Part shown: positions 1-41,289 of the stretch, piece after piece
Numbering within the stretch: position 1 is the first letter of the stretch
Layout of the letters: each line of letters begins with the position of its first letter
IMG/VR virus record: IMGVR_UViG_3300036791_000903
Location: 1-41,289 of that record
DNA length: 41,289 nt
Reading direction: 5' to 3' (one strand)
Origin: a virus
Made by a program: the position numbers and the translations under genes
The notes under the pieces: generated by a model
Told to the model about the DNA's origin: nothing
Database searches by the model: none
What the model saw: only the letters and a program-made list of their open reading frames with translations

Positions 1-172
1 CGGCCAGTGGGTAAAACCAGACGCAAGCTGCTGCGCCGACTCAGCCGCCTGAACTCTCAGAACCTCACGCTGCAGGAGCGGCTGGAAGAAGCCGAGAAGA
101 AACTGCGCGAAGGTGGCACCAAGCCATCGGCAGAACCTGCTTCCGCAGCCAAACCGAATCCCAAGGACTTCC
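1..172. repeat. Terminal redundancy: left copy of 172-bp direct repeat (right copy 41118-41289)
   Basis: Bases 1-172 equal 41118-41289 except T127 against C41244. The repeat lies inside the scaffold gene and keeps its reading frame across the join. This shows that the sequence is a closed circle or a circularly permuted phage genome. The repeat end is not visibly a true packaged terminus, and the single mismatch suggests strain variation in the source DNA. The mismatch changes Ser to Pro in the scaffold. Confidence 0.95.
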
Positions 173-13620: not shown

Positions 13621-14106
13621 ATGTCACGAAAAATAATGTTAACACAGAACCAAACCACGATCGTGACCAATAACGATTTCGAGTGGTTGTCAAAATGGAA
13701 GTGGCATGCGCTATGGAACAAAAAGACGCGCTCATTCTACGCGGTGCGATATGGACTGGTCAACGGAAAATATAAGACTATATATATGCATCGTGTCATT
13801 CTTGATGCTCCTACAGGGGTAGAATCCGACCATATTAATTGTTTGACCCATGACAATCGTCGTTCCAACTTACGTTTGGCGACTCACGCGGAGAACGGAT
13901 ACAACCGTTCAAGACAGCGTAATAACACTTCTGGTTATAAGGGTGTTTGCTGGGATAAAGCGCACCATAAATGGCTTGCCCAGATCAAATTAAACTATAA
14001 AAACATCTATCTTGGCTATTACGATGATTCTCGAGACGCTGCGCTGATCTATGACTGTGCGGCCAAGAAGTTGTATGGGAGATTTGCCAAGATAAACGGA
14101 GTGTGA
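13621..14106 (+). CDS. HNH homing endonuclease with AP2 DNA-binding domain
   Basis: 161 residues. The HNH core is HRVILDAPTGVESDHINCLT with DNRRSNLRLATHAEN (residues about 58-100). The C-terminal part SGYKGVCWDKAHHKWLAQI with LGYYDD and DAALIYDCAAKKLYG is an AP2-type DNA-binding domain. This HNH-AP2 architecture is standard for free-standing homing endonucleases. The gene is AT-richer than its neighbours, as expected of a mobile gene, and sits between the fibre gene and a secreted protein gene. It starts at ATG 13621 without an obvious ribosome site. Confidence 0.88.
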   Translation: MSRKIMLTQNQTTIVTNNDFEWLSKWKWHALWNKKTRSFYAVRYGLVNGKYKTIYMHRVILDAPTGVESDHINCLTHDNRRSNLRLATHAENGYNRSRQRNNTSGYKGVCWDKAHHKWLAQIKLNYKNIYLGYYDDSRDAALIYDCAAKKLYGRFAKINGV

Positions 14107-26679: not shown

Positions 26680-26969
26680 TGCACTGCAACGAGCTGATCG
26701 AGATCGTGCGAAAATCCGAGGACGTGTTCGCTGAACTCGGCCTGACCAATGCGCCCGCACTCACGGTCGCCGCTTCCGCATACGCTCGCATCCTGCCCGA
26801 TCCGGACATGACGTTTTACGAGCAGTGCGCCAAGTTCCTGCGCGTGATTGAAATACTCGGGCAACTGCGCCGCGGCCTCGATCCACGCTGCGACAGTTGC
26901 AAGGCCGAGGCCGAGCTTGAAGCAGCGCTGCGAGCCGGTCGGCAGAAGTTTGCGGAGCGCATGCAGTGA
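26679..26969 (+). CDS. Hypothetical protein
   Basis: 96 residues from ATG 26679 overlapping the previous stop (TGATG). Mostly helical, with a CDSCKAEAE pair of Cys near residue 73. It is translationally coupled to the replication protein gene and to the HNH gene after it (GTGA overlap). Function unknown. Confidence 0.65.
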   Translation: MHCNELIEIVRKSEDVFAELGLTNAPALTVAASAYARILPDPDMTFYEQCAKFLRVIEILGQLRRGLDPRCDSCKAEAELEAALRAGRQKFAERMQ

Positions 26970-27547
26970 GCGATCGATCGCAAGGCAGTTTGTTCCGCGA
27001 TCGCGCTCGCCTGGTCAATGCCCGCTCGGAGTTTTTGCAGATCACCTGCGATCGCTACCACGCCATGCAGCAACGGGTCGGAGAAAAGCGTGATTCCCGC
27101 AATCGCCTGATTCGGGTTGGCCAACAACTGCCCTTCACACTTGAGCAATTTCGCGTCTGGATCCGCAAGCAGCTGGGACGCGACGAACAAGGCCTCGCCC
27201 GCTGTTTGTATTGCAATCGCCCGCTCAATCTGCGCACCCTGCAGATCGACCACCACATTCCGCTTGCCCAAGCCGGCACGCTCAACCTCGGCAATCTGCG
27301 AGTGATCTGCAAGCCTTGCAACGACCAGAAAGGCGCTCTGCGACCGCAGGCTTTTATCGCGTTGCTTCACCTGGTCAATAACCATTCGCTCTTCACCGAA
27401 ATCGACCGCGCCGATTGCCTTGAACGCCTGCAGATGGCCCTCAAACTGGCCTTGCGGTCGCGTTACAAGCCTGCAGGAGCGACCGGCGAGCAAGCGCCCA
27501 GGGTTCGCGTCCTGCCCCATGTTCGCCTGCCCCAGAGGCCCGTGTGA
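26966..27547 (+). CDS. HNH endonuclease
   Basis: 193 residues from GTG 26966 (overlap with the previous stop). A helical DNA-binding-like N-terminal part is followed by the HNH domain: RCLYCNRPLNLRTLQIDHHI, PLAQAGTLNLGNLRVICKPC and NDQKG (about residues 80-125), with both zinc Cys pairs and the DHH catalytic motif intact. GC content and overlaps match the neighbours, so this one looks like a resident early-operon gene rather than a recent homing insertion. Role could be recombination or degradation of host DNA. Confidence 0.85.
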   Translation: MSDRSQGSLFRDRARLVNARSEFLQITCDRYHAMQQRVGEKRDSRNRLIRVGQQLPFTLEQFRVWIRKQLGRDEQGLARCLYCNRPLNLRTLQIDHHIPLAQAGTLNLGNLRVICKPCNDQKGALRPQAFIALLHLVNNHSLFTEIDRADCLERLQMALKLALRSRYKPAGATGEQAPRVRVLPHVRLPQRPV

Positions 27548-28144: not shown

Positions 28145-28653
28145 AGACTGCACAATCTATAGAAACGTCTGAAGAGCGCAAGAAACAAGCGCAGCCAAAG
28201 GTAGAGCCAAAAGTAGATGGGCGAGGTCATCATCCCAACTCGCATACTAAGGTTGGCAAGCGCTACAATCCCGCCGAGCACCTCAATCCTACCAAGTGGA
28301 AACCCGGCCAGAGCGGCAATCCCAGCGGCATGATCAAGAATGATGTAGCCCGCCAGATTGCCAAGGCAGTGTTCGAGAACAATCGCGAGAAGCTCTACAA
28401 GGCTTATGCCAAGGCCGCACTCAAAGGTAATGCATATGCCTTCCAGCAATTGGCCGATCGCGCTTACGGAAAGCTCAAAGAGCGCGTCGAATACGAAGTT
28501 AGTGAGTACCGCGAAGTCTCGGAGAAGGCACTAATTGAACGCATCTCAGACCTCGAACGCGAACTCGGACTTACAGCCGCGATTGACGAGGCTGGAGGAA
28601 CTCCGAGCCTTAAAGCGGGAACTGTACTCCCGCCGCGCACGCCGGAAGATTGA
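28141..28653 (+). CDS. Terminase small subunit-like protein (DUF5681 type)
   Basis: 170 residues from ATG 28141 (ATGA overlap). The motif KWKPGQSGNPSG is the DUF5681 signature. It is followed by a helical region KAALKGNAYAFQQLADRAYG and a coiled coil ending in LERELGLTAAIDEAG. Proteins with this domain regularly sit in front of large terminase genes and serve as the DNA-recognition subunit. It overlaps the large terminase frame by 119 bp. Confidence 0.78.
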   Translation: MKTAQSIETSEERKKQAQPKVEPKVDGRGHHPNSHTKVGKRYNPAEHLNPTKWKPGQSGNPSGMIKNDVARQIAKAVFENNREKLYKAYAKAALKGNAYAFQQLADRAYGKLKERVEYEVSEYREVSEKALIERISDLERELGLTAAIDEAGGTPSLKAGTVLPPRTPED

Positions 28654-29272
28654 CACCTTCTACCCTGATTCCGGCCCGCTGCGACGTGAACTCTATCCAA
28701 AGCATGTCGAGTTTTTCGCTGCCGGAAAGATGCATAGGGAAAGGTGTTTTCTGGCTGCTAATCGCATCGGTAAAAGTGAGGGCGTGGGTGCTTACGAAAC
28801 TACGCTCCATCTAACTGGTGACTATCCGCACTGGTGGGTCGGTCGTAGGTTCAACTATGGGATCACTGCATGGGCTGCCGGCAAGGACAGTAAGACTACT
28901 CGCGAAATCATCCAGTTAAAACTACTCGGCCAGATAGGCGAACACGGCACCGGCATGATTCCCGGCGATACCATCATTAGTACTACCCCAAAACCCGGCG
29001 TACCGGATGCGGTCGAGAGCATCGTGGTACAGCATATGTCCGGCACCAAGTCCAGGCTGGTACTCAAGTCTTATGACCAGGGCCGCGAATCATTTCAAGG
29101 TACGGAGCAGCACATGGTCTGGCTCGATGAGGAGTGTACCCGCGACATCTATATAGAATGCCTCACGCGAACTATGACCACCAATGGCATCATGTTGATG
29201 ACCTTCACACCTTTGCTCGGAATGACCGACATTGTGAGAGATTTCCTGGGCCTCGACCTCGACTCAAAGTAA
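28535..29272 (+). CDS. Terminase large subunit, ATPase half (split gene, part 1)
   Basis: 245 residues in the longest frame (TTG 28535; TTG 28583, behind no better ribosome site, is an alternative). It is the packaging motor ATPase: LRRELYPKHVEFFAAG, Walker A AANRIGKS, ITAWAAGKDSKTTREI, Walker B HMVWLDEEC with the catalytic Glu, and coupling motif MTFTPLLGM. Translation stops at TAA 29270-29272 right after LDLDSK. The normal continuation, (K)YLVQATWDDVPHL, appears 2.8 kb downstream in a separate gene. The split falls in the linker between ATPase and nuclease domains and loses no recognisable motif. Confidence 0.9.
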   Translation: MNASQTSNANSDLQPRLTRLEELRALKRELYSRRARRKIDTFYPDSGPLRRELYPKHVEFFAAGKMHRERCFLAANRIGKSEGVGAYETTLHLTGDYPHWWVGRRFNYGITAWAAGKDSKTTREIIQLKLLGQIGEHGTGMIPGDTIISTTPKPGVPDAVESIVVQHMSGTKSRLVLKSYDQGRESFQGTEQHMVWLDEECTRDIYIECLTRTMTTNGIMLMTFTPLLGMTDIVRDFLGLDLDSK

Positions 29273-29966: not shown

Positions 29967-30134
29967 ATGGATTACCAGTGGCTGAGTGACGATGAGCGGG
30001 CGCTGGCTGATCTTCATGCTCAGGGAACGACTATTTACCGGCTGCTGTACCGGCTGGCAACGGAGCGGGAGACGGTAGCGGAGCTGGAGCATGAACTAGC
30101 CGAGTTGCGACCTCTAATAAAGGATAGGGCATGA
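29967..30134 (+). CDS. Small coiled-coil protein
   Basis: 55 residues, ATG directly after the previous stop; its own stop overlaps the next start (ATGA). Helical throughout with a Leu/Glu heptad end (TVAELEHELAELRPL). Function unknown. Coupling on both sides supports it. Confidence 0.62.
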   Translation: MDYQWLSDDERALADLHAQGTTIYRLLYRLATERETVAELEHELAELRPLIKDRA

Positions 30135-31447
30135 TACAGGCGGCAGTGATACCGGATGTGGAGACGTTTGAGCAGCAGGGGCTGGTGCTGGGCGCGAAGT
30201 GGGCACGATGGATGGATGAGAACCCGGTGCTGGGGTTTGGGGTGGAGTCGCAGGTCTGGTACTACGACGGGGCCAGGGTCTACCTGCAGTTAGGGGATGC
30301 GCTGGGGGACAGCTGGGAGGCTTTGGCGGGGCTGGAGGGGCAGCCGCAGGCAGTGCCGCAGCATGAGCCGAGCTGGTATGGGTATGAGATTCTGCGGCAG
30401 TACGAGGCCTACATTTACAGCCAGACGGGGCCGCCGACTGGGGGGATAGGGCCGGGATACCGGATGTTTCCTTATGGGGTAACGATGGCGTGGTGGAGGA
30501 CGGGGGACGCCAGGTGGAAAGCGTTGCTGGAGTACATGGTGACGTACTCGTCTTACATCATGACCAATTTGCGGTATTTGAGGAAGCATCCCATTGAGAA
30601 GGGGACGAACTGGTGTCCCTGGTCGATCAGGGAAGCCTCGTATGTGGTGGACATCCTGGTGAGCTGGCTGGCGGTGACGGGGGAAACCCATGGGCTGTTG
30701 CACGATGCGATCTACGACTGTGTGTTGGAGGACTTGCGGGAGTACATGACGCCGCGGGGGCTGGTGTATGTGGGAACGAGTTGCGGGCGTGATCCGGCGG
30801 CCTACACGTACATCAATAATTTCATGGTAGGGCTGGCGCTGGAGTCATTGATTCACTACTACGGTGAGACGGCGGATGAGGCCATGCCGGGGTTCATCAA
30901 GCAAGTGCTGGACTTTTTCTGGGAAGTTTCAGTGGAGAAGGAAGACCCATTTACCTTGGAGCCGAGTTACGCGCAGTACTACAACAATGATCCGGTGAAT
31001 GGGAAGAATAAGGATGGGGTGCTGGTGCCGGGGACGCTGACGCCGGTTTGCTATACCGGCAGTTCGCTGAACCTGCTGGTGGCGCCGGCTTATGCGTGGT
31101 ACTGGTCGCGCAGCGGGGAGGCTGAATACCAGGACATGGGGGACAAGCTGTTCAGTGCCGGGGTGATGGGAGCAGGCAAGAGCTGTCCGGCAAGCGTGAA
31201 CTGCCAGGATTACACCTACCATGGCAAGCAGTACAGCCAGCAGTATAAGTGGGGGTTTGATTACGTTGCCTTCCGTCGTCTGCCGGTTTCATCGACCGCG
31301 GAGATCAATAACCAGGGGGAAGGGACGGCGGGCAAGGCGGGAAAGGGAAAGCCCCCAAAGCTGATGGCGGAAGCGGAAGTGCCGCCGGCTTACGACGAGG
31401 AGCAGGAAGCGATGGATTCGGTGGTGGTTGAAGTAGAACGTGTATGA
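30131..31447 (+). CDS. Large protein of unknown function lying inside the split terminase
   Basis: 438 residues from ATG 30131. Rich in Trp and Tyr with helix pairs (WKALLEYMVTYSSYIM, LVSWLAVTGETHGLLHDAIY, NFMVGLALESLIHYYGET, APAYAWYWSRSGEAEYQDMG) spaced like an alpha/alpha toroid, the fold of many glycan lyases and hydrolases. No catalytic motif could be named, and there is no signal peptide. The C-terminal 60 residues are a charged linker. Its stop overlaps the start of the endonuclease-VII gene (ATGA), the position where the terminase nuclease half formerly began. It may be a virion or glycan-acting protein. Confidence 0.75.
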   Translation: MIQAAVIPDVETFEQQGLVLGAKWARWMDENPVLGFGVESQVWYYDGARVYLQLGDALGDSWEALAGLEGQPQAVPQHEPSWYGYEILRQYEAYIYSQTGPPTGGIGPGYRMFPYGVTMAWWRTGDARWKALLEYMVTYSSYIMTNLRYLRKHPIEKGTNWCPWSIREASYVVDILVSWLAVTGETHGLLHDAIYDCVLEDLREYMTPRGLVYVGTSCGRDPAAYTYINNFMVGLALESLIHYYGETADEAMPGFIKQVLDFFWEVSVEKEDPFTLEPSYAQYYNNDPVNGKNKDGVLVPGTLTPVCYTGSSLNLLVAPAYAWYWSRSGEAEYQDMGDKLFSAGVMGAGKSCPASVNCQDYTYHGKQYSQQYKWGFDYVAFRRLPVSSTAEINNQGEGTAGKAGKGKPPKLMAEAEVPPAYDEEQEAMDSVVVEVERV

Positions 31448-32115
31448 GCAAGTACCTGGTTCAGGCAGGAAAAGCGAACTCGCGCACTCCTGCCGAGAAA
31501 ACATGCATACTCTGTCGTATCAGAAAACCGGCAGCGGAATTTCAGCAATACCCTCATAAAACGAAAGGTGGCAATGATGCTATACGGCTCAAGCCGCGTT
31601 GCAATCCATGCATGAAAGCGTATCAACCGCGCACGCCTTCAGAAAAGACCTGCATACTTTGCCGTATCAGAAAGCCAGCGGCAGAATTCTTAAAGTACGC
31701 ATACAAGACTACACAAGGCAAGAACGGTGTGCGACTGGACTCTCGCTGCACTGTATGTTTAACGGCGCGATATAGAGAACGTGCTAAAGAATGGGCGGGG
31801 AAGTATCCAGAAAAGATCAGGGAATATCAGGCGCGTTATCGCGCTAAGCCAGAAACCAAACGATGGAGGCGCGATCATCACTTGTCTATTCGTTATGGCA
31901 TCACGTTAGAGCAGTACGAATCAGATTACAAGAAGCAGACAGGCAAGTGCCTGATTTGCTCACAGGAATTCGGAAAGCTTTGCGTTGACCATTGCCATGC
32001 TACTGGGAAATATCGCGGACTCTTGTGTGATGCATGTAACCAAGCTGTTGGAAAGCTGCAAGACAGTCCTGAACTCTGCGAGAAGGCAGCAGAATATTTA
32101 AGACAGGGCATGTGA
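31444..32115 (+). CDS. Endonuclease-VII-family homing nuclease beginning with terminase codons
   Basis: 223 residues from ATG 31444. The first eight residues, MSKYLVQA, copy the start of the downstream terminase half (MSKFLIQA). Two tandem zinc modules of 49 residues follow (each TPxEKTCILCRIRKPAAEF ... RCxxC; DNA units 31481-31627 and 31628-31774), then a basic helix. The nuclease domain is YGITLEQYESDYKKQTGKC, LICSQEFGKLCVDHCHATGK, YRGLLCDACNQAVGK, the recombination endonuclease VII pattern with four zinc Cys and DHCH. It is AT-richer than its neighbours. It starts in the overlap with the 438-residue gene and ends in a GTGA overlap with the terminase gene. Confidence 0.88.
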   Translation: MSKYLVQAGKANSRTPAEKTCILCRIRKPAAEFQQYPHKTKGGNDAIRLKPRCNPCMKAYQPRTPSEKTCILCRIRKPAAEFLKYAYKTTQGKNGVRLDSRCTVCLTARYRERAKEWAGKYPEKIREYQARYRAKPETKRWRRDHHLSIRYGITLEQYESDYKKQTGKCLICSQEFGKLCVDHCHATGKYRGLLCDACNQAVGKLQDSPELCEKAAEYLRQGM

Positions 32116-33824
32116 GCAAATTTTTAATTCAGGCGACTTGGGATGATGTCCCTCATCTTGATCCGCAGGCCAAGGCCGAGCTGCTGGCGGCCTATCCGCC
32201 TTACCAGCGTGATGCCCGCACCAAGGGCATACCGCAGTTGGGCAGTGGGGCCATTTATCAGGTGCCTGAGTCGGACGTGGTGGTGCCGGACTTCGAAATC
32301 CCTGACTACTACCCGCGGTGCTACGGGATGGACGTAGGCTGGAACCGGACGGCAGTGGTGTGGGGGGCAAAAGATCCGGCCAGTAACACCATTTATCTTT
32401 ATTCGGAGCACTACCGCGGGCAGGCTGAACCGATCGTGCATGCCCTGGCCATCCAGTCGCGCGGGAAGTGGATTCCGGGCGTAATTGACCCGGCGTCTGC
32501 CGGTCGCAGCCAGAAGGATGGCATGCAGCTGCTGATGCAGTACAAGGAGATGGGCCTTGACCTGGAACCGGCGTCCAATACCGTGGAAAGCGGCATTCAG
32601 GAAGTGTGGCAGCTGCTGAGTGCGCTGAAATTGCGGGTGTTTCGGTCGCTGGGCAACTGGATTACCGAGTTCAGGCTGTACCAGCGGGATACGGACGGGC
32701 GGATCGTGAAGCAGCACGACCACCTGATGGATGCATGTTTGGCACCTGACACGTTGATTCAGACTAACTTAGGGCACATTGCTATAAAAGACCTCATAAC
32801 CGTTAAAGGCTGGGTATTGTCCCGCAGCGGCAGCTGGGCCAGGTTTCACGGGGCCCGCAAGACGATCGAAAACGCTCGCGTTGTGCGGGTGAAGTTTGCT
32901 GATGATTCTGAAGTGCTATGCACTCCCGATCACCCGTTTCTGACGCCTGATGGATGGATGCCGGCTATGGAGATGCCGGGCCGATACGTTTATAACGGGC
33001 TATCGCAATGCCAAACCAAAGAACAATTCTCTGGAACGATCCAGTCGTGGTTTCGCCAACCTGCCAAATGTTTCAGGGAAAGCGCTTCTATCTTTGCGGA
33101 AAGTATTATCAGCATGGGAAGTGGGGCGTACGCCTGCATCGACGGGTGTGGGAAGCCTGGCATGGCAAACCTGTTCCAGCTGGCCTCGACGTACATCACA
33201 CCGACCACTGCCGTGACCACAACGGGCACGACAACCTCGAGCTTATGGCAAGAGCCCGGCATGTGGCGCACCATCATAAAGGTGTTAGCAAGATCCTTCC
33301 AGCAGCAGCGCTTTCAGCCGCAGCCATCTGGCATGGCAGCGATGCTGGGCGAAAGTGGCACAAAGCCCACTACGACGAAATGGGAGCCAGGCTGCACGTT
33401 AGCGCAGAATTCACTTGCGAGCACTGCGGTAAGCCCTACCTCACCAGAGTCACCGGAGCAAATCGATTCTGTTCCAGCAACTGCAGAACTCGGTTTCGCA
33501 AAGCGTCTGGCGTGGACGATCAGGAATATAGCTGCGTGGAGTGTGGCACACGTTTTGTGGCGAATCGCTACGTCAGGAAACTCTGCTGCTCGCGCAAGTG
33601 CGCTACTCAACGTACTATCCGTCGAAGAAGCCGGGAAAAGTGACGTCTACTGTCTAACCGTTCCTGGTACTTCTGCCTTCTGCCTCTCGAACGGAGCCGT
33701 GGTTCACAATACTCGGTATCTGATCGTGAGTGGGCGCGACCGCATGCGGCAGGCGCCGGCCAAGGCCAAGCATGAGAGCCGCTATGTGTATCCCGGCCAG
33801 CAGTCGCAGGCGTGGATGGAATGA
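32112..33824 (+). CDS. Terminase large subunit, nuclease half (split gene, part 2), interrupted by an intein
   Basis: 570 residues from GTG 32112 before splicing, about 245 after. It begins MSKFLIQATWDDVPHLDPQA, the segment that normally follows the ATPase domain. RNase-H-type nuclease motifs: RCYGMDVGWNRTAVVW (Asp73), IPGVIDPASAGRSQKDG (Asp126), and HDHLMDA^TRYLIVSGRDRM with the third acidic residue directly before the intein site. Intein residues 209-533 separate Ala208 from Thr534. The two terminase halves must assemble as separate chains, and the nuclease should be complete only after splicing. It cuts concatemeric DNA during packaging. Confidence 0.9.
   Translation: MSKFLIQATWDDVPHLDPQAKAELLAAYPPYQRDARTKGIPQLGSGAIYQVPESDVVVPDFEIPDYYPRCYGMDVGWNRTAVVWGAKDPASNTIYLYSEHYRGQAEPIVHALAIQSRGKWIPGVIDPASAGRSQKDGMQLLMQYKEMGLDLEPASNTVESGIQEVWQLLSALKLRVFRSLGNWITEFRLYQRDTDGRIVKQHDHLMDACLAPDTLIQTNLGHIAIKDLITVKGWVLSRSGSWARFHGARKTIENARVVRVKFADDSEVLCTPDHPFLTPDGWMPAMEMPGRYVYNGLSQCQTKEQFSGTIQSWFRQPAKCFRESASIFAESIISMGSGAYACIDGCGKPGMANLFQLASTYITPTTAVTTTGTTTSSLWQEPGMWRTIIKVLARSFQQQRFQPQPSGMAAMLGESGTKPTTTKWEPGCTLAQNSLASTAVSPTSPESPEQIDSVPATAELGFAKRLAWTIRNIAAWSVAHVLWRIATSGNSAARASALLNVLSVEEAGKSDVYCLTVPGTSAFCLSNGAVVHNTRYLIVSGRDRMRQAPAKAKHESRYVYPGQQSQAWME
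32736..33710 (+). other. Intein in the terminase nuclease active site
   Basis: 325 residues: N-terminal Cys (CLAPDTLIQT, block A), block B with SEVLCTPDHPFLTPDGWMPA (the TxxH motif), and C-terminal blocks F/G VYCLTVPGTSAFCLSNGAVV ending in His-Asn, followed by Thr in the extein. All residues for protein splicing are present. The middle carries no endonuclease in the intein frame; instead an HNH gene lies there in another frame. Confidence 0.9.
33008..33643 (+). CDS. HNH homing endonuclease nested out of frame inside the intein
   Basis: 211 residues from ATG 33008 (ATG 33068 is an alternative). The HNH core is LHRRVWEAWHGKPVPAGLDV, HHTDHCRDHNGHDNLELM and ARARHVAHHH. Two Cys2-Cys2-like fingers follow: CEHCGK...CSSNCRTRF and CVECGT...CSRKCATQR, with a basic end. 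Its frame is shifted by one base relative to the intein, and both frames stay open over 636 bases. Protein-like motifs in this frame leave little doubt that it is expressed or recently was. No clear ribosome site is visible. Confidence 0.82.
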   Translation: MPNQRTILWNDPVVVSPTCQMFQGKRFYLCGKYYQHGKWGVRLHRRVWEAWHGKPVPAGLDVHHTDHCRDHNGHDNLELMARARHVAHHHKGVSKILPAAALSAAAIWHGSDAGRKWHKAHYDEMGARLHVSAEFTCEHCGKPYLTRVTGANRFCSSNCRTRFRKASGVDDQEYSCVECGTRFVANRYVRKLCCSRKCATQRTIRRRSREK

Positions 33825-36237: not shown

Positions 36238-36735
36238 ATGCCAGCCGAATCCAAGGCCCAGCAGACCGTGAGTCCGCAGTACATAGCCGGATTCCTTGAC
36301 GGAGAAGGCAATATCTCGATTTTGCAGTGCAACCGTTATATTCGGCAATGCTCCTATCAATTACATGTTGGTTTTACTAATCGCGATTTGCGCCCGCTTC
36401 AGCTTATTCAGGCTGCATACGGTGGATGCCTTTGGCAGAAACGTCGTTACAGCTCAAAACATTCACAAACCTATGAACTCCGTATCGGTAAACGAGTAGA
36501 TGTTGGCAGGCTGCTGACCAACCTGTTGCCGTATTTGATTTGCAAGCGTGATCAGGCAGAGCTTGGCCTCGCCTTCCTTGCTCTTGGCAAGGTAAAAGTA
36601 CAGATGGTTGGCACGCGGAAAATTCACCCGACAAAGGGTGGGGTTTATCCGATTATGAAAGCTGTGCCGGGTGAACAAGAAAAAAGAGCCGAAATAAAAT
36701 CCAAGCTCACTGTACTCAATGCCAGAGGTGCATAA
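36238..36735 (+). CDS. LAGLIDADG homing endonuclease beginning with DUF3008-like codons
   Basis: 165 residues from ATG 36238. The first nine residues, MPAESKAQQ, repeat the start of the DUF3008-like copies at 36736 (MPATSKAQ) and 37347 (MPAKSEAQ). After that SPQYIAGFLDGEGNISI gives the LAGLIDADG helix with its acidic catalytic end, and the rest (CSYQLHVGFTNRDLRPLQLI, SQTYELRIGKRVDVGRLL) follows the single-motif family, which acts as a dimer. AT-richer than neighbours. It reads towards the portal region, divergent from the minus-strand cassettes. Confidence 0.88.
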   Translation: MPAESKAQQTVSPQYIAGFLDGEGNISILQCNRYIRQCSYQLHVGFTNRDLRPLQLIQAAYGGCLWQKRRYSSKHSQTYELRIGKRVDVGRLLTNLLPYLICKRDQAELGLAFLALGKVKVQMVGTRKIHPTKGGVYPIMKAVPGEQEKRAEIKSKLTVLNARGA

Positions 36736-36858
36736 ATGCCAGCTACATCCAAGGCACAAGCCATAGCCACGGCCATTGCCGAGCATGCACCAGAAAAGCT
36801 ATACGCCCGCAACCAGGGTCTGCTGAAGATGTCGAAGCAGCATGGCTACCAATATTGA
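36736..36858 (+). pseudogene. Truncated DUF3008-like copy
   Basis: 40 residues from ATG 36736: MPATSKAQAIATAIAEHAPE, KLYARNQGLLKMSKQ, then an unrelated HGYQY and stop. It matches the N-terminal two thirds of the DUF3008-type protein and breaks off exactly at KMSKQ, where intact members continue with a LHDFA(A/S)T segment. The endonuclease-VII gene begins inside its last codons. It is probably the 5' remnant left by that insertion, though it may still be translated. Confidence 0.7.
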
Positions 36859-37357
36859 ACTACTTTCTGCTACCAAATCCAAAGCTAAACGTCAACGAAA
36901 AGAGTACATCCAGCAATGGCGGGATCAAAACCGGGAAAAACTGCGGCAGCAAGGCAGAGATCGTTACGCCAAAAATCCCGACAAATTCAGGGAAGAGGCA
37001 TTGCGACGTTATCATGCCAATCCTGAATTGCATCGCGAAATCTCACGCCGCTGGAAGAGCAGAAACAAAGACAAGGTTGCCCTATACGTAAGGCGAAAGG
37101 CATTGCTGCGACTGTACGGCATAACGCCGGAGGAATACGGGCGCATGCTGAAGGAACAGAAGCATCGCTGCCAAATCTGCAAGGTAAAAGACGTCGATGC
37201 CAGATACGGGCTTTTGGATGTCGATCATTGCCATGAAACGGGCAAGGTGAGAGCTTTGCTTTGTAATCGCTGCAATCGGTTAGTTGCTCAAATAGAAGTT
37301 AGTGGGCGCGAGATTTTCAATCGAACACTGGAATACATAGACCAGCATGCCGGCTAA
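36842..37357 (+). CDS. Endonuclease-VII-family homing nuclease
   Basis: 171 residues from ATG 36842, overlapping the truncated DUF3008-like copy by 17 bp and the intact copy by 11 bp. A basic helical N-terminal half (KRQRKEYIQQWRDQNREKLR onward) is followed by LYGITPEEYGRMLKEQKHRC, QICKVKDVDARYGLLDVDHC, HETGKVRALLCNRCNRLVA, the recombination endonuclease VII pattern with its four zinc Cys and DHCH. It is related to the nuclease at 31444-32115 in its C-terminal domain. Confidence 0.88.
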   Translation: MATNIELLSATKSKAKRQRKEYIQQWRDQNREKLRQQGRDRYAKNPDKFREEALRRYHANPELHREISRRWKSRNKDKVALYVRRKALLRLYGITPEEYGRMLKEQKHRCQICKVKDVDARYGLLDVDHCHETGKVRALLCNRCNRLVAQIEVSGREIFNRTLEYIDQHAG

Positions 37358-40880: not shown

Positions 40881-41289
40881 ATGACCATCACGGTTAGCTC
40901 TACGACCGGCACTCTGGAAGAGTCGCAGAAAGCTGCCGACTACGGTCTAAAGACCGCGCGGGAGTCCACTGCCGCCTCACCTGAAGTAGAAACCGAAGAG
41001 CATCCCGAGGCGGGCGAGAGCCACGCCGAAAGTGGCGCTGAACCGGAACCAGCGCAAGACGAGGAAGAGCAACCCAAACCTGAAGAAGAAGAGGACGAGG
41101 AAGAAGAAGAGCCAGAGCGGCCAGTGGGTAAAACCAGACGCAAGCTGCTGCGCCGACTCAGCCGCCTGAACTCTCAGAACCTCACGCTGCAGGAGCGGCT
41201 GGAAGAAGCCGAGAAGAAACTGCGCGAAGGTGGCACCAAGCCACCGGCAGAACCTGCTTCCGCAGCCAAACCGAATCCCAAGGACTTCC
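40881..41289 (+). CDS. Scaffolding protein, N-terminal part (continues at base 1)
   Basis: Starts at ATG 40881 behind AAGGAG (40870-40875) and is open to the window end. Residues about 30-80 are extremely acidic (runs of Glu/Asp such as EEEEDEEEEEPE). The basic KTRRKLLRRL segment begins at residue 83. Joined with 1-714 it gives a complete 316-residue protein. See the entry at 1-714 for function. Confidence 0.85.
   Translation, partial: MTITVSSTTGTLEESQKAADYGLKTARESTAASPEVETEEHPEAGESHAESGAEPEPAQDEEEQPKPEEEEDEEEEEPERPVGKTRRKLLRRLSRLNSQNLTLQERLEEAEKKLREGGTKPPAEPASAAKPNPKDF
41118..41289. repeat. Terminal redundancy: right copy of 172-bp direct repeat
   Basis: Same sequence as bases 1-172 with one difference (C41244 against T127). 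Closing the circle here gives a unit genome of 41,117 bp. Confidence 0.95.

Follow-up and report, generated by a model that had tools for sequence, protein, structure and literature searches.

A candidate HNH homing-endonuclease gene nested out of frame within a phage terminase intein

Here we analysed a 41,289-nucleotide stretch of viral DNA (positions 1 to 41,289 of IMG/VR record IMGVR_UViG_3300036791_000903; hereafter, the window) in which the gene for the nuclease half of the terminase large subunit (TerL) is interrupted by an intein, and in which the DNA of this intein also encodes an HNH protein in a second reading frame. We conclude that this is very probably an HNH homing-endonuclease gene that is nested at −1 in a spliced TerL mini-intein, is translated by internal initiation and homes with the intein as a cassette. 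Both coding frames, a rule for their relative offset, a pattern of selection in relatives, the predicted folds and a patchy distribution were observed. The arrangement represents a large class and not a single case, which, like the division of the terminase into two genes, goes beyond what the first-pass annotation of this DNA had proposed.

Two reading frames in one intein

The nuclease-half gene is one open frame of 570 amino acids, and the intein lies in frame with it at a conserved site in the terminase nuclease motif, HDHLMDA^TRY, where it had been placed at first reading; those coordinates and the frames of both open reading frames (ORFs) are confirmed (Table 1). Two NCBIfam profiles match above their cut-offs (intein_Nterm, 8.4e-6; intein_Cterm, TIGR01443, 6.2e-6), and Pfam Intein_splicing matches at 1e-7 with a score slightly under its gathering threshold. 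The splicing residues in the window are C1, T63-P-D-H66 of block B, H324-N325 and a +1 Thr, and C1, H66 (block B TxxH) and N325 are invariant across 44 aligned inteins. In the AlphaFold model, residues 1–93 and 290–325 fold at a predicted local distance difference test (pLDDT) score of 93–98, with residues 94–289 disordered and almost devoid of secondary structure. Both splicing halves are predicted to adopt the HINT fold, and the best Foldseek matches of the model are solved inteins (NpuDnaB, MchDnaB, gp41-1 and RecA). No stop separates the N- and C-terminal halves, so this is not a split intein or fractured gene; nor is it a canonical endonuclease-containing intein, because the endonuclease is not in the intein reading frame.

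Codons start at 0 mod 3 in the intein frame and at 2 mod 3 in the HNH frame, and both frames are open. The 211-residue HNH and double zinc-finger protein that had been read one base out of frame is borne out by matches to HNH_3 (1.9e-8) and to the HNH family PHROG 15471 (1.7e-42 over residues 12–207), and it is 27–45% identical to 37 aligned relatives. With an HNH motif and DNA-binding zinc ribbons, it has the sequence features expected of a homing endonuclease. The HNH-frame model of the same DNA has a mean pLDDT of 92. Among PDB sequences, only the homing enzyme I-HmuI matches the HNH protein (E = 5.7e-5); a Foldseek search of the model against the PDB gave no significant match (best, I-HmuI, E = 0.096), so the HNH assignment rests on sequence. 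Both frames probably encode functional protein only over the last HNH codons, which overlie the C-terminal splicing domain, and over the first few.

These features suggest how the locus would work. Ribosomes translating TerL would read through the HNH gene in the intein frame and produce a long disordered linker between the folded splicing halves; the intein would then excise itself, join the exteins and restore the nuclease motif. Other ribosomes would initiate within the intein, at the start codon of the HNH, and yield a free nuclease, which would cut intein-free terL and so cause the whole cassette of intein and HNH to be copied in.

Table 1 Features of the terminase locus, in window positions
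Feature	Position	Strand	Support
Terminase ATPase half, separate upstream gene	28535..29272	+	Terminase_6N 7e-14
Free-standing endonuclease VII-type HNH gene, neighbour outside the intein	31444..32115	+	Endonuclease_7 1.8e-21
Terminase large subunit, nuclease-domain half	32112..33824	+	Terminase_6C 2.5e-8; phrog_5653 terminase 1.5e-21
N-extein, 208 aa, ends KQHDHLMDA	32112..32735	+	
Intein, 325 aa, C1 to terminal N325, +1 Thr	32736..33710	+	NCBIfam, Pfam, conserved residues
N-terminal splicing domain, intein residues 1–93, blocks A and B	32736..33014	+	AlphaFold pLDDT 93–98; matches gp41-1 and DnaB inteins
Intein-frame reading of the HNH region, residues 94–289, probably an unconserved stop-free linker	33015..33602	+	pLDDT 35–55; omega ~1 in relatives
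C-terminal splicing domain, residues 290–325, blocks F and G, ...VVHN	33603..33710	+	pLDDT 95–98; TIGR01443
HNH endonuclease gene of 211 aa, nested at −1 to the intein; GTG 33047 is an alternative start	33008..33643	+	HNH_3, PHROG 15471
HNH_3 catalytic region, HNH residues 42–86; conserved H63, H64, N72, H85	33131..33265	+	
Two CxxC...CxxxC zinc ribbons, HNH residues 137–159 and 176–198	33416..33601	+	Conserved Cys columns in relatives
Last HNH codons, overlying the C-terminal splicing domain	33603..33643	+	
C-extein, 37 aa, TRYLIVSG..., and stop	33711..33824	+	Uninterrupted in intein-free relatives

Recurrence, stop avoidance and selection across phages

A scan of viral contigs with the single window HNH as the query returned no relative, and alignments of the HNH were therefore used as survey queries. 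The surveyed loci (L101–L329) came from scans seeded with these alignments only. Profiles of the N-terminal splicing region, the C-terminal splicing region and the HNH were searched independently in every frame of each locus, so that an in-frame HNH of the same family would have been detected. Among 160 loci with an open intein frame, the HNH was at −1 in 152, at +1 in 8 and in frame in none; these counts describe the PHROG 15471-type HNH family and are not a measure of how frequent in-frame HNH inteins are in general. The loci represent about 156 phage and prophage contigs (four contigs were fetched twice), with GC contents of 27–68%. C1 is present in every one of the 160, as is a terminal Asn with C, S or T after it. 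Nearly all N-exteins scanned are terminases: 51 of 64 match the PHROG 2 terminase, and additional ones match other terminase families. The insertion point is directly before or after the Asp of nuclease motif III in about 146 of 159 inteins. The HNH stop is located beyond the beginning of the C-block match in 98% of nested loci, by a median of 20 nucleotides.

Searching with the nested HNH protein by tblastn matched 21 phage records. Free-standing HNH genes adjoin terL in PAE1, FBPa53, SN1, EauM-23, Poludnitsa and PhiSTP1, and the HNH is out of frame within a TerL intein with a fully open frame in Tetrasphaera phage TJE1 (L088), Acinetobacter phage Highwayman (L090), Rhodobacteraceae phage LS06 and a human-gut scaffold. 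For the three named phages, the records annotate only the terminase there and leave the HNH unannotated. Stops in the AT-rich gut scaffold number 0 in the intein frame and 30 in the third frame.

Other loci are reduced or divided. Only an HNH zinc-ribbon remnant is left in Brochothrix BL3, the intein frame is broken in Vibrio phage 1.238.A and ctRVW222 has a TerL mini-intein without an HNH. Stops separate the intein halves in about 17 loci. Five of the surveyed loci (L103, L106, L108, L121 and L132) encode TerL with the N-terminal intein half, the HNH, and the C-terminal intein half with the rest of TerL as separate ORFs; the C-half has an ATG or GTG start of its own, located at or close to the HNH stop, and in L132 there is also a clear AAGGAG site. 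They resemble split inteins that have the HNH placed between their halves, and the C-terminal intein halves of such candidates are short (~36–45 amino acids). At the window's own site the intein appears patchy, because the closest TerL relatives are uninterrupted there: 80 fetched relatives of the nuclease half (58–70% identity) have no insert at the intein site over the matched span, and most matches cross the site. The HNH tree, poorly resolved as it is (63 of 115 inner branches are open), intersperses the nested, free and split forms, which requires at least 22 changes. Distances of HNH, intein and extein correlate weakly, although above shuffles (0.15–0.26), which leaves unsettled whether HNH and intein travel jointly.

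An HNH gene that retains a stop of its own has no access to the in-frame position, where the stop would cut TerL short. For the other two frames, we compared the loci with a null model in which the codons of each HNH gene were shuffled synonymously and stops were counted in the intein frame. Open −1 loci numbered 58, compared with 8.5 expected, and open +1 loci numbered 7, compared with 0.0 expected; nested loci have 0 intein-frame stops, compared with a mean expectation of 2.1. The window has none where 3.0 are expected and was open in 0.5% of shuffles (P = 0.005). Free-standing HNH genes, in contrast, follow expectation (6.4 stops observed, 6.2 expected) and have stops in both other frames: 6.4 in the frame that equals the intein frame under −1 nesting and 18.8 in the other. 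That the −1 reading of this family holds by far the fewest stops offers a simple reason for the −1 bias. The lower expectation after shuffling for nested genes (2.1) than for free-standing genes (6.2) suggests that codon and amino-acid choice have adapted as well.

Selection was estimated by sorting substitutions according to their effect in both frames in 20 independent pairs with 75–99% DNA identity. Omega in the HNH frame was 0.45 when conditioned on intein-nonsynonymous changes and 0.31 when conditioned on intein-synonymous changes, and intein-frame omega over the same DNA was 1.34 and 0.92. Elsewhere, omega was 0.20 in the C-splicing block, 0.57 in the N block and 0.43 in the N-extein. 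The low values of the HNH frame and the splicing blocks indicate that both are maintained. With values near 1, the same DNA read in the intein frame behaves as a neutrally evolving, unconstrained linker that nevertheless contains no stops. The first-pass annotation had named relatives without a conserved second frame as an observation that would count against it; in this codon-substitution analysis the second frame is kept in relatives and is under purifying selection.

A more general account, to which we give little more than even probability, is one in which out-of-frame nesting is the standard in a large class of terminase inteins across very different base compositions, the HNH is never in frame and is translationally autonomous, the intein frame stays open only through selection against stops, and loss of that frame gives rise to split inteins with the HNH between the halves. 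If this is true, nested HNH inteins are a stage between continuous and split inteins, and an endonuclease gene is hidden in many phage terL annotations; TJE1, Highwayman and LS06 are examples of phages with endonucleases that standard annotation has missed. Overprinting, and not domain fusion, would be a second mode by which an intein and an endonuclease share a locus. Because one HNH family exists as a free gene beside terL, as an out-of-frame nested gene and as a gene between the parts of a split intein, two old questions become testable: how endonucleases and splicing elements unite, and how split inteins arise. The class may also supply natural inteins that tolerate unconserved linkers of ~200 residues, with possible use in protein engineering.

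Expression, competing explanations and known systems

Of 75 dereplicated −1 loci, 74 have a start codon upstream of the HNH domain. The best Shine–Dalgarno sites average −4.3 kcal/mol at these loci, compared with −2.2 at interior start codons and −5.6 at free-standing genes; at the six +1 loci tested, Shine–Dalgarno strength was no higher than background. Slippery heptamers in phase occur at 10 of 75 loci, which is no enrichment over the 10.8 expected, and the window region has none. Taken together, the start codons, the class-level Shine–Dalgarno signal and the lack of slippery-site enrichment make internal initiation the best-supported candidate route of expression. The proposal that the HNH is made independently of splicing thus fits its own start and stop, its free-standing relatives and these class-level signals.

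Several points weigh against a nested, internally initiated HNH gene in a spliced, homing intein. The candidate HNH starts in the window have weak Shine–Dalgarno sites (−2.5 and −3.3 kcal/mol). Splicing blocks A, B, F and G had been described as intact, and their key residues are indeed present, but block F is not fully canonical, with VYC in place of VYD or VYN and TSAF where most relatives carry His. All pairs used to estimate selection come from other members of the −1 class, the window having no close nested relative, and the frame bias may partly reflect shared ancestry in addition to stop avoidance. Splicing, translation of the HNH by internal initiation, DNA cutting and homing are steps that we infer.

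The dominant −1 offset is also what classical −1 ribosomal frameshifting would produce, in which case the HNH would be made as a fusion to the N-terminal part of the intein. We regard this as quite unlikely, given the absence of slippery-site enrichment, the use of the +1 frame at eight loci, the free-standing homologues that start on their own codons and the class-level Shine–Dalgarno strength. The HNH might instead be a packaging partner of the terminase that stays at terL so that the two are co-expressed, comparable to the HNH proteins next to terL in HK97-type phages. Its free-standing relatives do sit between terL and portal, and HNH proteins of some phages work in packaging (Kala et al. 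2014, cited in PMC12613952; PMC10448857). The patchy presence among close TerL relatives, the homing enzyme I-HmuI as the sole PDB sequence match and the mixing of nested, free and split forms across the HNH tree nevertheless make such a role improbable. Decayed copies such as that of Brochothrix BL3 raise the question of whether the window holds a dead mini-intein and a fossil HNH, both open by chance or sequencing error. This is highly improbable, as intein-frame stops number 0 where 2–3 are expected, the HNH and splicing blocks are under purifying selection and the catalytic residues are retained; at the class level this explanation is largely refuted. A sequencing frameshift, raised in the first-pass annotation as a possible objection, was rejected, because neither frame is broken and about 150 loci show the same frame relation. 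A group I intron was set aside, as the open intein frame encodes conserved splicing residues.

Canonical large inteins carry an in-frame homing endonuclease, as in LAGLIDADG inteins and, with an in-frame HNH, Synechocystis GyrB. The window shares with them a HINT splicing domain and a putative role as a mobile cassette; in contrast to them, its endonuclease is a separate out-of-frame gene and its intein frame reads as a disordered linker. Fractured genes and split inteins with a free-standing endonuclease between the halves were reportedly described by Dassa et al. in 2009, and the five divided loci resemble them, whereas the window keeps its intein in one open frame. The PHROG 15471 HNHs of Pseudomonas phage PAE1 and Salmonella phage PhiSTP1 are 42–45% identical to that of the window but stand alone next to terL and contain stops in both other frames. 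An out-of-frame HNH without splicing domains occurs in the third frame of a methylase in phage ShiLan, with similar insertions elsewhere (PMC11855218). There too, an HNH with zinc fingers lies out of the host frame, the host frame is kept open and the distribution is patchy and homing-like; the ShiLan insert is thought to stay in the methylase, however, whereas the window HNH lies inside an intein with splicing domains, in a terminase. TerL inteins are known in mycobacteriophages (Kelley et al. 2016, PMC5050341); the host protein is the same, and the available excerpt of that paper makes no mention of a nested out-of-frame HNH. A literature search for overlapping or different-frame endonucleases in inteins found only ShiLan and a phage announcement with a methylase case. 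A 2025 preprint by Gosselin, Arsenault and Gogarten on actinobacteriophage inteins of non-canonical architecture (doi 10.1101/2025.01.02.630785) may describe out-of-frame endonucleases in inteins. It is cited for overlapping frames in PMC11855218, and priority for an out-of-frame HNH inside an intein is unsettled.

Terminase genes and genome context

The terminase is split in the window, with the ATPase gene ~2.8 kb upstream of the nuclease-half gene. The first-pass annotation had predicted a ligated product of 27 kDa; the size holds (245 amino acids, ~27 kDa), but as the ATPase half is a separate gene, splicing would restore only the nuclease half. The same ATPase/nuclease split occurs in some relatives (L063, L067 and L079–L081), with gaps of ~0.1 to ~5.6 kb, and split nuclease halves begin MSK(F/W/L) ahead of ATWDDVPHL.

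The GTG start of the nuclease half overlaps the stop of the preceding endonuclease VII-type HNH gene, which has stop/start overlaps with both of its neighbours (ATGA and GTGA). The N terminus of this HNH, MSKYLVQA, resembles the MSKFLIQA of the nuclease half, like a recoded copy, as if the HNH gene had captured the original start of the terminase half. A 438-amino-acid ORF between the terminase halves (30131–31447) had no match in Pfam, NCBIfam or PHROG and none by tblastn in phage records.

The ends of the window (1–172 and 41118–41289) overlap by 172 bases at 99.4% identity, with one mismatch, which suggests a complete genome of ~41.1 kb, circular or circularly permuted, and not a fragment. 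Four more endonuclease-type genes lie at 13621–14106, 26966–27547, 36238–36735 and 36842–37357 (AP2/HNH_3, HNH, LAGLIDADG and endonuclease VII); together with the pair at terL, they give this small genome a heavy load of homing-type nucleases.
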